Part shown: one piece after another, positions 1,323 through 7,783 of the stretch
Layout: each line of letters begins with the position of its first letter
Position numbering within the stretch: the stretch's first letter is position 1
Source of the DNA: an uncultured Eubacteriales bacterium
GTDB taxonomy: Bacteria > Bacillota_A > Clostridia > Christensenellales > Aristaeellaceae
Reading direction: 5' to 3'
DNA: 7,783 bases
Assembly: GCA_900553645.1 (NCBI GenBank)
Contig: USEE01000057.1
Coordinates: 1-7,783, forward strand
Notes under the pieces: model-generated
Seen by the model: the letters and a program-made list of their open reading frames with translations, nothing else
What the model was told of the DNA's origin: nothing
The model's database searches: none
Made by a program: the position numbers and the translations under genes

Positions 1323-1595
1323 ATGAATCCGCTGGGCGGACACAAAATGGCGCAAATGCCGGTCAAAAAACTGCTGCTCAACATGGGCACGCCTATGATG
1401 ATTTCCATGCTGGGGCAGGCGCTTTACAATGTAGTCGATACGTTCTTTGTCTCGCACATACCTGACACCGCCGCCGTCGCGGACATGGGCGACAAGGCAA
1501 TCAATGCGCTTGCCGCTGGCGTGGGCGCTGTCGATGCTGCCCAACGCGGCGGATGTAATTTGGGCGGCGCTGTCCTGATGAGTAGTCTGCGTTAA
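1323..1595 (+). pseudogene. MATE family efflux transporter, internally deleted
   Basis: The first 63 or so residues are the standard start of a clostridial MATE drug/sodium or proton antiporter: an MPVKKLLLNMGTPMMISML-like first helix, then GQALYNVVDTFFVSHI and DTAAVADMGDKAINAL. MATE pumps are about 440-460 residues with 12 membrane helices, and this frame ends after 90. From about 1510 the next frame (+1) reads LPLAWALSMLPNAADVIWAALS before a stop at 1576-1578, which resembles a C-terminal MATE helix. The simplest account is one deletion of more than 1 kb that fused the 5' end to a 3' scrap out of frame. The start has a good ribosome binding site (AAGGGAGA, 1307-1314). The gene should give no working pump, although MarR-MATE pairs are common and this was probably the regulator's main target. 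The N-terminal identity is firm; the C-terminal scrap is less sure. Confidence 0.75.
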
Positions 1596-1612
1596 ACAAA
1601 ATTGAGATATGA

Positions 1613-1644
1613 AAAGGCGCTGTCCGTTATCGGATAGCGCCTTT
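1613..1644. terminator. Bidirectional terminator between MATE remnant and pstS-like gene
   Basis: A 14-bp stem, AAAGGCGCTGTCCG (1613-1626) with CGGATAGCGCCTTT (1631-1644), has one G-T wobble and a four-base loop TTAT. On the minus strand the stem ends in CCTTTTC followed by T-rich sequence. On the plus strand it ends in CCTTTGTCTTG. It sits between two convergent genes and can serve both, with the better T tail for the leftward pstS-like gene. Confidence 0.8.
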
Positions 1645-1666
1645 GTCTTGCCTTAATAAGCTTTTT

Positions 1667-2581
1667 TTATGCCGCAGGTTCAGTTACCGCGTCAACCGCG
1701 TCCCAGGTGCGGGTCTCGCCGGTGTAGATCGAGGTGATTTGCGCCGAGGTGATGGCCTCGATGGGGTTGTTCAGGTTGACTATCACGGCGATGCCGTCGT
1801 GTGCGAAGGTGGTCTGGGTCAGCGTGGCCAGCTCGTCGTCCTTGAGCGCGCGGCTGGACATGCCGATGTTTACCTTGCCCTCGGTTACGTCCTTGATACC
1901 CGCGGAGGAACCCGAGAAGGTGATTTCGACGTTAACGTCGGGGTTGAGCGCAGTGTAACCTTCCTTCAGCGCCTCAATGACCTTTTCAACCGAGGTGGAG
2001 CCCGACAGCGTGAGCTTGCCGCTCAGACCGGAGGCGGTGTACTCGGTAGCGGCAACAGCCTCGGAGCCGTCCGCAGTGGTCGCGGTATCGTCGGTGGCGG
2101 TCACATAGCCGCGCTCGGCGACGATGGCCTGACCCTGAGTGCTGAGCACATATGCGATGAAGTCGGCGGCCAGCGGGTCGTCAGCGCCGGTCTGCGTGGC
2201 CAGTACGAACGGACGCGCCAGCGCATAGGAGCCGCTCTTTACGTTCTCAACAGTGGCTTCCACGCCGTCTACGGGCAGTGCCTTAACCTTGTCGTTGACC
2301 GCGCCCAGCGAGGTGTAGCCGATTGCCTGCTCGTCAACCTCGACCTTGCTTACAACCGCGTCGGTGGAGTCAACCAGCACGGCCTCCTCAAACAAGCGGT
2401 TTTCCGCGCCCTCGTCGGTCTTTACAACTATATTCATCATCTCGTCGAACGCGCCGCGCGTGCCGGAATTGGCTTCACGGGAAATGACCGTGATTTCGCC
2501 GGTCTGCTCAAATGCCAGTGCCGAACCGCTAACCATCATCGCGCCCGCCAGCAATAGACTTGCAATCTTCTTGAGTTTCAT
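1667..2581 (-). CDS. Exported PstS-like phosphate-binding protein, circularly permuted
   Basis: A 304-residue substrate-binding protein of the PstS family (phosphate capture for the PstCAB ABC importer). A signal peptide (MKLKKIASLLLAGAMMVSGSALA) ends at a probable signal peptidase I site after residue 23. There is no lipobox and no cysteine anywhere, unlike most Gram-positive PstS lipoproteins. The mature chain opens with the motif normally found mid-protein, TVISREANSGTRGAF (31-45, supplying the Arg and Ser-Gly-Thr phosphate ligands), then AIGYTSLGAVNDKVKAL (86-102) and the usual C-terminal ARPF and FIAYVLSTQGQAIV. After an acidic, Thr/Ala-rich linker (about 161-187) comes the normal N-terminal half: SGSTSVEKVIEAL (193-205), FSGSSAGIKD (222-231), IGMSSR (239-244), HDGIAVIVN (261-269) and IYTGETRTW (285-293), where the protein stops. 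All parts are present once, in swapped order. The ribosome binding site is AGGAGG, 9 bases before the ATG. No pstCAB genes lie in the window, so its partner is unknown. Confidence 0.88.
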   Translation of the reverse strand: MKLKKIASLLLAGAMMVSGSALAFEQTGEITVISREANSGTRGAFDEMMNIVVKTDEGAENRLFEEAVLVDSTDAVVSKVEVDEQAIGYTSLGAVNDKVKALPVDGVEATVENVKSGSYALARPFVLATQTGADDPLAADFIAYVLSTQGQAIVAERGYVTATDDTATTADGSEAVAATEYTASGLSGKLTLSGSTSVEKVIEALKEGYTALNPDVNVEITFSGSSAGIKDVTEGKVNIGMSSRALKDDELATLTQTTFAHDGIAVIVNLNNPIEAITSAQITSIYTGETRTWDAVDAVTEPAA

Positions 2582-2682
2582 GTTCCTGTTCCTCCTGATC
2601 CTGCTCTGCTTTTCTATCTTCTCTTTGTGACGGGTACATTGTAAGCCCGCCGCATTTGTTTAATAGCAAACATTAGTGAGGG

Positions 2683-2883: not shown

Positions 2884-3516
2884 TTATTTCCCCGAACCAG
2901 CCTGCGCCGTGGGTTCACTTGTCGCGCTCGCGCTTGCGTCGTCGCTCGGCGCGGGCGTGGCGGCGGCCGTGCCATATTCGGTGAAGGTTATGCCCTCAAG
3001 CGCCGAGTCGGGCGCCTGACCGTTGAACGTAATCATCGTGATTATGTACGCGCTGCCGTCGTCGCTGAGCATCAGCACGTATTCCGCGTTCACGTTCTGA
3101 AACGTAGACAGTATGCGCGAACACGGCCGTCCCGCAAATTCCTGATCGGACAGTATCTGCCAGGTCGTGCCGTTTTCGTCGGGATGATCGACCGACGCGC
3201 CCAAGTCCTCGGCATATGCCTGAGTAAGCTCGTTTACGTTGTCATAGGGCGATTCAGCCGCGCAGTATACGAACAGCTGCGATTGCGTATCGGCGCTGAA
3301 CACCTCCAGTATCAGATCGGGCTTTACGTTGCCGGAGCGCTCGAAGCCGTTGGTCTGCGCGAGGGTTTCATCGTCGGTACGGGTGAACGCGTTGTCGATC
3401 TCGATTGACATGCCCAGATCGTATATCACAAACGCCCATCCATAGTGCTGCGCATATGCACACGGCGTCAGGCACAGCATTATCAGCGCGGTTAACAGGG
3501 CGAGCAGCCTTTTCAT
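2884..3516 (-). CDS. Exported protein of unknown function
   Basis: The 210-residue product begins MKRLLALLTALIMLCLTPCAYA, a signal peptide with a likely signal peptidase I site after residue 22; LTPC is not a convincing lipobox. The start at 3516 is preferred over an in-frame ATG at 3534 because AAGGAGG lies 7 bases before it, inside the longer reading. Residues 23-180 form one compact domain rich in alternating beta strands, with late strands around FAGRPCSRILSTF, EYVLMLSDDGSAYIITMITF and a final SALEGITF. That pattern resembles the PsbP/Mog1-like alpha-beta sandwich proteins secreted by many Clostridia, but the match is by eye only. Two cysteines (85 and 132) could form a disulphide. The last 27 residues are a Pro/Ser/Ala/Thr tail of low complexity, as in surface spacers, with no membrane anchor or sorting signal after it. 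The gap and hairpins on both sides suggest a single-gene unit. Confidence 0.75.
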   Translation of the reverse strand: MKRLLALLTALIMLCLTPCAYAQHYGWAFVIYDLGMSIEIDNAFTRTDDETLAQTNGFERSGNVKPDLILEVFSADTQSQLFVYCAAESPYDNVNELTQAYAEDLGASVDHPDENGTTWQILSDQEFAGRPCSRILSTFQNVNAEYVLMLSDDGSAYIITMITFNGQAPDSALEGITFTEYGTAAATPAPSDDASASATSEPTAQAGSGK

Positions 3517-3587
3517 GCGTATGCCTCCTTGCATTGTGGGTAAAGCGCGCTATCCTTGGGCTATGGGCAGGCTTAAAACAGATACCG

Positions 3588-5374: not shown

Positions 5375-5403
5375 TTGACAAGCGGGCAGAGGCGTGGTAC
5401 AAT
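5375..5403 (+). promoter_or_regulatory. Strong promoter of the terminase cassette
   Basis: A consensus -35 TTGACA (5375-5380), a 17-bp spacer and a -10 TACAAT (5398-5403), extended by an upstream TGG (5395-5397, a TGn motif). It is the best promoter in the window. Transcription should start near 5410, leaving a leader of about 100 bases before the ATG at 5514. The divergent uxaC promoter lies about 110 bp away on the other strand. Confidence 0.85.
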
Positions 5404-5416
5404 ATATCCCGTAAGG

Positions 5417-5430
5417 CGAACATAAGTTCG
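5417..5430. promoter_or_regulatory. LexA (SOS box)-like operator
   Basis: CGAAC-ATAA-GTTCG is a perfect palindrome containing the Gram-positive LexA/DinR core GAAC-N4-GTTC, and it matches the published longer consensus CGAACRNRYGTTYC at 12 of 14 positions. It sits at about +7 to +20 of the terminase promoter, where a bound repressor would block transcription. If real, the cassette would be silenced by host LexA and switched on by DNA damage. Binding is inferred from the motif and its position only. Confidence 0.6.
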
Positions 5431-5481
5431 CAAATATAGACTTGGCCGCGCGAGCAGTGCGGCATGATTATTGACTGCTGC

Positions 5482-5497
5482 ATGCAAGGAGTTGCAT
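5482..5497 (+). promoter_or_regulatory. Leader dyad with GGAG in the loop
   Basis: ATGCAA and TTGCAT pair perfectly around a four-base loop, GGAG, the core of a Shine-Dalgarno sequence. The real ribosome binding site of the next gene (GGAGGTGAG, 5502-5510) starts five bases later. The element could be an RNA hairpin affecting ribosome access, or a DNA operator dyad. Confidence 0.3.
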
Positions 5498-5513
5498 ATA
5501 TGGAGGTGAGGCG

Positions 5514-5978
5514 ATGCAGGATGGGCTGGCGGCGATGTGCGGCGCAAGTCCGGCCGAGCGGGCGAAACTGGGCGGCCTGCCCGACGATGCGCGCGGTATG
5601 CTGGGCGCGCAGATTGCATTTATGGCGCTGAGGCAAAGCCGCGCTATGCAGGAACTGAAGGCGTTTTCGCGGGAGGCGGGCGTTAAGGGCATTGGCGCGC
5701 TGGAGGAATCGTCCGATAAGGACGCGTGCACGGGCGGCAAGGCTGGCCCGGACAGCGAGCAGAACTCGCGCGAGCGCGTGATCAAGCGCCGCTCGGCGTT
5801 CGACGCGCGGCAGGAGATCGAGGCGCGGCTGAACAAGCTGGGCGATCAGATGCTAAAGGCTATCGAGCTGATGGTCGCGCTGGAGGAGCGCGGCGCGGAC
5901 TCGGGCGGCGATGCGCCGCGCACCTGCATATTGATACCTGACAATGGACGCGGCCGCGCGGAGCAGGAACGGGGGTGA
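5514..5978 (+). CDS. Putative phage terminase small subunit
   Basis: A 154-residue protein recognised mainly from position: it lies directly before the large terminase gene and overlaps it by four bases (GTGA), the usual place of a small terminase subunit, which recognises phage DNA and recruits the large subunit. No family motif is certain. The N-terminal 60 residues are Ala-rich and probably helical. Residues 62-90 are a polar, Gly/Ser-rich stretch. Residues 92-127 (RRSAFDARQEIEARLNKLGDQMLKAIELMVALEE) look like a long amphipathic or coiled-coil helix suited to oligomerisation, and the tail TCILIPDNGRG may contact the partner. The ribosome binding site GGAGG lies 7 bases before the ATG. Its Gln codons are nearly all CAG, like the first half of the next gene. 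It could instead be another phage head-start protein. Confidence 0.5.
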   Translation: MQDGLAAMCGASPAERAKLGGLPDDARGMLGAQIAFMALRQSRAMQELKAFSREAGVKGIGALEESSDKDACTGGKAGPDSEQNSRERVIKRRSAFDARQEIEARLNKLGDQMLKAIELMVALEERGADSGGDAPRTCILIPDNGRGRAEQERG

Positions 5979-7438
5979 GTAATACGGGCGAGGCAGAATT
6001 GCGCCCCGACGACGCAATAAGTTGCATATCACCTCAGCCGGGGCCACAGAGCGCGTTTCTCAGCTCGGATGCCGACATAGTAATCTATGGCGGCGCGGCG
6101 GGCGGCGGCAAGACTTATGCGCTTTTGATGGAGGCATTGCGCAACGTGGACGTGCCGGGCTTTGGCGCGGTGATATTCCGCAAGAATGCCAATCAGGTAT
6201 TGGCGCAGGGCGGGCTGTGGGATACGTCGCGCGCGCTGTATGCGGGGCTGGGGCAGATGCGGCTTACGCCGTCGCCGCGCTGGACATTTCCGTCGGGCGC
6301 GAAGATCTCATTTGCGTGTCTGGAGGACGACGCGGCGGTGCTGAAGTGGCAGGGCAGTCAGATTGCCCTTATCTGCTTTGACGAGCTGACGCACTTCAGC
6401 CGGGCGCAGTTTTTCTACATGCTGTCGCGCAACCGATCGACGTGCGGCGTGCGGCCGTATGTGCGCGCGACGTGCAATCCGGACAGCGAGAGCTGGGTAG
6501 CGGACTTAATCAGATGGTGGATAGACCCGGAGACGGGCTATCCGATACCCGAGCGCGCGGGGGTGAAGCGATACATGCTGCGCGCGGGGGACGAGCTATA
6601 CTGGGCGGGCAGTGCCGGGGAGCTAAAGGCGCGTTTCAGCGGGAGCGAATATGCGGATGTTCAGCCCAAGAGCGTGACGTTCATTGCGGCGACGCTTAGC
6701 GACAACCGGATACTAATGGAGCGCGACCCGGGCTACGCGGCCAACTTGATGGCTCTGCCCACGGTGGAGCGGGAGCGGCTGCTCGGCGGCAACTGGCGCA
6801 TACGACCGGCGGCAGGCATGTATTTTAAGCGCGAGCGCGCGCCTATCCTAACTGAAATGCCTAACGACATAATATCATATGTACGGGCATGGGACTTAGC
6901 GGCGGGCGAAGAACGAACGGGCAGCACGGCGGCCTACACGGCGGGCGTACTGATGGGCAAGCGGCGCGGCGGCGGATACGTCGTATTAGACGTAATCAAC
7001 CGGCGCATGAGTGCAAGCGGTGTACGCGCGTGCATCCAATCGACGGCTATTACAGACCAACTGCGATTCAAGCCTCTGCGCATACGCCTGAACCAAGATC
7101 CGGGGCAAGCAGGCAAAGACCAGGCTGAGCAATACCTAAAGCTACTAACAGGCCACGCAGTAAGCATAGTCCGAGAAAGCGGTTCCAAGCTAGTCCGCGC
7201 GGAGCCATTCTCAGCGCAATGGCAAGGCCTATCCGGAACATCGCACGGCAATGTAAGTCTACTGCCCGGTGAATGGAACGCCGAATACCTATCCCAACTA
7301 GAGGCCTTCCCGGACAGCAAATACAAAGACATGGTTGACGCAAGCGCCACGGCCTTCAGCGAGCTGGAAAGTCATGCCGGGGTTATACCGGCAAAGAGCA
7401 TTGGAGGGGTGGGGGCTACGTCACGATGGAGGATATGA
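5975..7438 (+). CDS. Phage terminase large subunit
   Basis: A complete 487-residue packaging motor that pumps phage DNA into proheads and cuts it. The N-terminal ATPase has Walker A GGAAGGGKT (39-47), Walker B ALICFDE (131-137, with catalytic Glu137) and the coupling motif ATCNP (165-169), ending at the conserved LLGGNWRIRPAAGMYFKRE (269-287). The C-terminal RNase H-like nuclease has RAWDLAAGE (304-312, Asp307), YVVLDV (335-340, Asp339) and KDMVDASATAF (451-461, Asp452/Asp455), so the metal-binding acidic residues appear present. The GTG start at 5975 overlaps the upstream stop codon, so translation is coupled; there is only a weak GCAGGA ribosome site. Codon use switches sharply at about residue 285: Gln is CAG 9 of 9 times before and CAA 8 of 9 after, and Glu goes from 12 GAG/2 GAA to 5 GAG/7 GAA. 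A recombinant origin is likely. No portal gene follows. Confidence 0.93.
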   Translation: MSNTGEAELRPDDAISCISPQPGPQSAFLSSDADIVIYGGAAGGGKTYALLMEALRNVDVPGFGAVIFRKNANQVLAQGGLWDTSRALYAGLGQMRLTPSPRWTFPSGAKISFACLEDDAAVLKWQGSQIALICFDELTHFSRAQFFYMLSRNRSTCGVRPYVRATCNPDSESWVADLIRWWIDPETGYPIPERAGVKRYMLRAGDELYWAGSAGELKARFSGSEYADVQPKSVTFIAATLSDNRILMERDPGYAANLMALPTVERERLLGGNWRIRPAAGMYFKRERAPILTEMPNDIISYVRAWDLAAGEERTGSTAAYTAGVLMGKRRGGGYVVLDVINRRMSASGVRACIQSTAITDQLRFKPLRIRLNQDPGQAGKDQAEQYLKLLTGHAVSIVRESGSKLVRAEPFSAQWQGLSGTSHGNVSLLPGEWNAEYLSQLEAFPDSKYKDMVDASATAFSELESHAGVIPAKSIGGVGATSRWRI

Positions 7439-7470
7439 CGGGGGAGTACGAGGGGTTACGAAGGGCTACG
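7411..7470 (+). repeat. G-rich decamers in 10-bp register across the terminase stop
   Basis: GGGGGCTACG (7411-7420), GGGGAGTACG (7441-7450), AGGGGTTACG (7451-7460) and AAGGGCTACG (7461-7470) share the form RRGGGnTACG or close to it and fall exactly on a 10-bp grid, three of them back to back. The exact decamer AGGGGTTACG recurs at 7554-7563. A 10-bp period is not a multiple of three and matches one DNA turn, so the pattern is not a coding repeat. It begins inside the terminase C-terminus and continues past the stop codon (7436-7438). It may be a protein-binding iteron or a packaging site; the function is inferred. Confidence 0.45.
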
Positions 7471-7471
7471 T

Positions 7472-7501
7472 GTTCTTTCTTTTTAGAAAAAAAGAAAGAA
7501 C
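7472..7501. terminator. AT-rich hairpin after the terminase gene
   Basis: GTTCTTTCTTTTT (7472-7484) pairs perfectly with AAAAAGAAAGAAC (7489-7501) around the loop AGAA, a 13-bp stem 34 bases after the terminase stop codon. It has few GC pairs and is followed by A-rich rather than T-rich sequence on the plus strand, so it is a poor intrinsic terminator by rule. On the minus strand the preceding tail is T-rich (TTTTTCTTTGG). It could be an mRNA end-protecting hairpin or part of a repeat. Confidence 0.45.
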
Positions 7502-7783
7502 CAAAGAAAAATCGATTGGCTGTTCTCCCGAATGGGTTACTTACGCTCGATTTAGGGGTTACGGGTTTCTTTATACGAGAGGCGGCGCGTGTATGCTGCT
7601 TTAAGATGCTTACTCGCTATGAGTCAGCGGCGTTTCTTTGGTACTATTATTTGTGGCTCACGCGATTTGGTATCTTGGGCGTTTCGGGATACCGCGAATC
7701 GAGGTTACTTATTTAGGAGGGTTTCGCCCGCGGTGAGTTCACCGCCACGCAAGCGGGGCGGCTCAGGGCAGATTCGGGGCGCT
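7502..7783. other. Hairpin-rich non-coding tail, no supported gene
   Basis: No reading frame here looks like a real protein. The region has a two-part hairpin (CGATT 7663-7667 with AATCG 7697-7701, and GGTATC 7669-7674 with GATACC 7688-7693). It also has a tight palindrome GCGGTGA-GT-TCACCGC at 7730-7745 and an imperfect direct repeat in which GTTACTTA then TTTAGG occurs at 7536-7556 and 7704-7717. A Shine-Dalgarno-like TAGGAGGG (7714-7721) lies 12 bases before a GTG at 7733 whose frame is open to the right edge, which could be the first codons of a gene but is only 17 codons long here. The density of small dyads suggests intergenic repeat elements. Confidence 0.4.

Follow-up and report, generated by a model that had tools for sequence, protein, structure and literature searches.

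The window analysed here, contig USEE01000057.1 of an uncultured Eubacteriales bacterium of the gut (assembly GCA_900553645.1; 7,783 nucleotides in all), contains a pstS gene whose product carries the two halves of the phosphate-binding protein PstS in swapped order. The swap is confirmed, and the product is very probably a circularly permuted PstS, the extracytoplasmic phosphate-binding protein of the Pst ATP-binding cassette (ABC) importer. PstS serves as a model for binding proteins and is often used as a scaffold for phosphate sensors. The gene starts with ATG on the minus strand; an earlier note, made from the letters alone, had placed it exactly and left the strand out. An AGGAGG sequence lies nine bases before the start codon, and a strong hairpin of -21.2 kcal/mol (z -7.39), followed by U-rich sequence, lies past the stop codon; a simple terminator-consensus scan of the window did not have this hairpin among its matches. 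The gene and its elements are as follows.

1667..2581, minus strand: permuted PstS gene, 304 amino acids (open reading frame list, Pfam, NCBIfam, homologue order)
2591..2596, minus strand: Shine-Dalgarno-like AGGAGG (sequence)
2513..2581, minus strand: signal peptide, residues 1-23 (cleavage after ...GSALA by eye; N-terminal comparison)
2099..2500, minus strand: block equivalent to the C-terminal half (C-half) of classical PstS, residues 28-161, now first (TIGR02136 and block profiles)
2456..2479, minus strand: REANSGTR motif, residues 35-42, with R35, S39, G40 and T41 conserved (conservation count)
2027..2098, minus strand: new linker from old C-terminus to old N-terminus, residues 162-185 (linker comparison; predicted local distance difference test, pLDDT)
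1694..2026, minus strand: block equivalent to the N-terminal half (N-half) of classical PstS, residues 186-296, now last (TIGR02136 and block profiles)
1988..2002, minus strand: GSTSV motif, residues 194-198; classical PstS has it close to the N-terminus (conservation count)
1611..1647, minus strand: terminator-like hairpin, 19 bases past the pstS stop codon (folding energy)

The protein scores 120.3 bits against the Pfam family PF12849 (PBP_like_2), above the gathering cut-off of 27, and matches the NCBIfam model TIGR02136 (E 1.4e-55) in two stretches whose order is swapped. Block profiles made from 32 alignment rows, whose matches run from about residue 28 to 161 and from about 186 to 296, find a C-half, a linker and an N-half, each block once. 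The chain therefore does not follow the classical N-C order and has the C-N order of the 4H1X-like permuted group (see below), as the earlier note had read it. The opening of the chain lies in the loop between W293 (TRTWDAV) and the VISREANSGTRGAF strand, which is the TRTW/SGTR junction named in that note. When the halves are rejoined in classical order (residues 187-296 followed by 28-163, with one extra leading Met), the chain matches TIGR02136 end to end in a single stretch, positions 40-294 of 295, and scores 197.7 bits; the native order, matched in two stretches, scores 188.6.

All 120 listed homologues share the C-N order. The nearest relative, an 87% identical gene, is found on an independent contig of 134,820 bases in G001, a metagenome-assembled genome of Candidatus Fimadaptatus faecigallinarum. 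The order is also that of a solved structure, PstS2 (SP_2084) of Streptococcus pneumoniae (PDB 4H1X), which is colinear with the window protein, and the predicted fold of the latter matches 4H1X. The linker region of the predicted model (residues 161-180) has block mean pLDDT values of 67 and 72. The linker is 12 residues longer than that of 4H1X and about 12 longer than in most other permuted PstS: of 133 distinct permuted sequences, 17 have 24 residues between the profile ends and the other 116 have 11-18, and the listed holders of the 24-residue form are relatives at 83-99% identity.

Permuted PstS is found in many Clostridia, the class of G001 according to the NCBI lineage of its genus. 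In this class, 72 of 391 sampled genomes have a colinear near-full-length match, spanning at least 257 of 292 model positions, a lower bound because at most six candidates were scored per genome; E <= 1e-60 was reached in 73 genomes, among them G229 with a partial match, and the match in G753 is interrupted by an internal stop codon. The family of G001 has the permuted form in 47 of 120 genomes, two of which have an internal stop codon in the gene (E <= 1e-30 was reached in 50), and its order in 23 of 151 (57 matched at E <= 1e-20). In 30 of the other 34 matched genomes of the order, the match consists of two adjacent pieces in N-C order, i.e. the classical form. The samples of class, order and family overlap. 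Beyond Clostridia, eight of 398 genomes of the class of the Paenibacillus genome G009 have the permuted form (12 matched at E <= 1e-30; again a lower bound), and the impression in the earlier note that the order occurs in other Bacillota is thereby borne out. Its reading as a circular permutation is supported by the sequence, the colinear crystal structure, these relatives and the trees of the halves.

All trees were quick trees, and rows with a short block match, near-duplicates and long-branch rows were left out of the counts. In trees of the rejoined halves the permuted rows cluster, and the clade of the window protein (22 rows) has a Shimodaira-Hasegawa-like approximate likelihood-ratio (SH-aLRT) support of 99-100. 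Holding 56 permuted rows as one group against 45 classical rows gives a log-likelihood (lnL) 1.91 above that of the free quick tree, with p 0.526 in the approximately unbiased (AU) test. The half trees, which also leave out L132, L133 and 4H1X and comprise 55 permuted and 43 classical rows each, behave alike under the same constraint (N-half, lnL 38.35 higher, AU p 0.868; C-half, lnL 0.28 higher, AU p 0.5). A single origin of permuted PstS is thus allowed, not proven.

The earlier note had suggested that the permutation came from a tandem duplication trimmed at both ends. This part of the proposal is plausible, since PstS proteins with tandem copies exist in other lineages whose C-to-N linkers resemble, by eye, the linker of the permuted form; that linker in turn looks like the classical C-terminal tail joined to the classical segment before the N-half. 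Among the best 120 of 777 matches of a tandem-PstS query (E <= 1e-20), the block orders were NCNC (42), NCNCNC (30), NCNCNCNC (2), CNCN (10), CNCNC (4), CN (19), NCN (7) and CNC (6). The in-frame tandem proteins consist of the same halves as the window protein, arranged classically and repeated as two to four full copies, and some lie on contigs of more than 3 Mb. P0181, P0122 and P0123 have two, three and four copies, respectively, and several tandem PstS are named Chloroflexota or Anaerolineae; a doubled permuted PstS (P0153, CNCN) occurs on 37 contigs. Against the proposal, none of the eight multi-copy proteins added to a tree lies next to the permuted cluster, and the 1.5-copy proteins are partly chimera-like. 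In P0165/P0177, P0178/P0234 and P0201/P0206 the first N is near-identical and the C-N after it differs, P0178/P0201 have most of C in common with different N blocks, and P0173/P0186 have C and much of N in common with a different last C. Such sharing of blocks is as expected from assembly chimeras or local recombination, and the NCN and CNC proteins were not counted as ancestors.

The same 1.5-copy proteins, together with the shortness of the window, are what could be said for an assembly chimera or frame artefact in which wrongly joined pieces mimic the swap. Chance and misassembly are nevertheless excluded because the listed homologues, the gene on the independent contig and the solved structure share the order, and the signal peptide, ribosome site and terminator-like hairpin are all in place; a chimera is practically untenable here. 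It is also very improbable that the halves come from two different PstS genes by fusion. The weakly supported trees leave room for different origins of the halves, and such an origin was considered by the authors for the permuted part of the Treponema pallidum protein TpMglB-2 (PMC4990184); a single PstS profile, however, covers the rearranged chain end to end, and in each half tree the permuted rows cluster and are not rejected as one group.

A further possibility concerns what followed the permutation. It is conceivable, and on balance rather unlikely, that permuted PstS arose once and that one group in the order of G001 then returned to N-C by a second cut. The candidate returners come from 10 genomes; they are N-C proteins in which the junction is short and the W..VGGxD motif is missing from it. 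The quick tree places all 10 within the permuted cluster; an eleventh short-junction row (L239) is placed elsewhere, on a long branch. The RPFN marker is found in 25 of 58 permuted and four of 49 classical rows, L132 and L133 among the four. The short-junction rows nest in the permuted cluster in quick trees, and a tree holding all permuted rows together (29 permuted against 47) is no worse, with lnL 5.55 higher and AU p 0.596, so that the short-junction group may either have branched from within the permuted cluster or be its sister. The short-junction N-C PstS (L132, L133, L232-L238 and L240) head pstCAB in the two contexts examined (G313 and G441).

The window protein contains the motifs GSTS, GSS.G, SSR and R...SGT, which we take, from E. 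coli PstS, to form the phosphate site. R35 and S39 are conserved in 58 of 58 permuted rows and in 40 and 48 of 49 classical rows, respectively; G40 is invariant in both (58/58 and 49/49), and T41 is found in 57/58 and 46/49. In the second half of the chain, S195 is again invariant in both (58/58 and 49/49), S197 and G228 are present in 58/58 and S225 in 57/58 permuted rows, S243 in 58/58 permuted against 38/49 classical rows, and R244 in 51/58 against 37/49. The ligand site is at least as constant in the permuted as in the classical rows, and phosphate is therefore the likely ligand.

The gene context of the relatives points to the same importer. In all 15 loci L002-L016, of which two belong to the same genome, the permuted pstS is followed by pstC, with pstA, pstB and phoU next where the contig extends and a two-component system in several, not all, of them. 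pstC also follows in L189, L190, L191 and L227-L231; L191 has pstC and pstA with no adjacent pstB. Two permuted pstS stand in tandem before a single pstCAB-phoU operon in L189 (genome G774) and L190 (G276). Genome G005 has two separate Pst loci, L191 (contig C40) and L013 (C5), both with permuted PstS, and one of its permuted proteins (L026 in the trees) is very divergent.

The copy in the window stands alone. Heading a pstCAB operon is the usual, not the defining, feature of the permuted group; here the downstream neighbour is a 90-amino-acid MATE-like fragment on the opposite strand, and upstream lie a 216-amino-acid protein without a family match and then uxaC. The signal peptide ends in ...GSALA-FEQ and has no lipobox cysteine. 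A simple lipobox pattern is present in 63 of 121 proteins compared. Of the distinct permuted loci whose upstream sequence is long enough, 45 in all, 36 match a lipobox pattern. Three of the nine loci that do not match (L006, L008 and L127) are lipobox-like by eye, which leaves six: L001, the locus of G001, and five of the order of G001 (G443, G339, G415, G430 and G309), of which G339 has a cysteine inside the core of the signal. Lgt was found in all eight genomes tested, G001 included. In G001 the permuted pstS is the only PF12849/TIGR02136 gene found, and the same contig has, at a distance of about 50 kb, a pstC-pstA-pstB-phoU-regulator-kinase operon without pstS; the gene before its pstC resembles, by eye, an M3-type peptidase.

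The protein is best explained as a PstS whose chain is cut in the loop ahead of the SGTR strand, with the new linker bridging the former ends; the permutation presumably moves the N-terminus from the GSTSV-bearing to the SGTR-bearing lobe. The protein would form the usual two-lobed clamp, close on phosphate and feed PstCAB; in the simplest reading, separated from the operon and deprived of its anchor, it would do so in trans. The position away from the operon and the missing lipid anchor make service to PstCAB in trans by an unanchored exported protein probable. Those same two features, shared by the window and G001, would also suit a protein that has ceased to feed PstCAB and, once secreted, acts as a phosphate scavenger or sensor. 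This role is unlikely: the gene is the only one of its type found in G001, where the pstCAB-phoU operon lacks a pstS, and in all five lipobox-less relatives from the same order the gene still heads pstCAB. Some points do weigh against assigning the protein to the importer. The window gene and that of G001 are the only two permuted contexts examined without an adjacent pstC; pstCAB is assumed for the window organism from one 87% identical relative, whose genome completeness is unstated; an unanchored protein in a one-membrane bacterium could be lost to the medium; and the curated cut-off of TIGR02136, 206.6 bits, is missed in native and rearranged order alike. Judged by its sequence, the protein would work like PstS, yet it falls outside that model's own membership.

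Other features of the window are listed below.

1323-1595, plus strand: 90-amino-acid open frame, MATE-like (PF01554 below cut-off; phrog_6241, 1.1e-10)
2884-3534, minus strand: 216-amino-acid protein with a signal-like N-terminus, between pstS and uxaC (sequence)
5514-7438, plus strand: phage terminase small and large subunit genes (phrog_1889, phrog_979)

The frame at 1323-1595 matches only the first part of MATE transporters and is apparently a truncated gene beside the pstS terminator. The 216-amino-acid protein has no match in Pfam, NCBIfam or PHROGs, and Rfam and tRNA scans of the window gave no matches. The terminase genes point to a prophage edge or remnant on the contig; five records of a phage collection match 5400-7783 at about 65-74% identity over at most 34%.

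Classical PstS (TIGR02136; PDB 4q8r, 4gd5 and 1twy) is homologous to the window protein in both halves, keeps the ligand-site positions and has the same operon partners as the relatives. It differs in having the N-C order, and it matches the window protein only as two stretches or, when aligned sequentially, over half of the fold. The pneumococcal pstS2 lies in a pst2-phoU2 operon, unlike the solitary window gene, and the word 'permut' does not occur in the main text on Pst2 (PMC4913102). Among the papers listed from the open-licence PMC literature, none describes a permuted PstS, judged by title and the start of the abstract. The kind of rearrangement, a permuted ABC binding protein, is known, and is here met in PstS. 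TpMglB-2 (Tp0684, 'Type Ic') is a natural circular permutation with ligand binding and ligand-induced shape change intact, has relatives in Gram-positive gut bacteria, and differs from the window PstS in its type I sugar-binding fold, its cut point and its ligand (PMC4990184).

The classical PstS model scores the window gene as two halves, below the cut-off, which is a practical issue for annotation: some relatives are annotated merely as 'substrate-binding domain-containing protein', others as phosphate transport proteins. The authors of the TpMglB-2 study propose the permutation to be an adaptation to tethering (PMC4990184). The window PstS, by contrast, is permuted and has no lipobox, and this tetherless copy bears on the idea of permutation as an anchoring adaptation.
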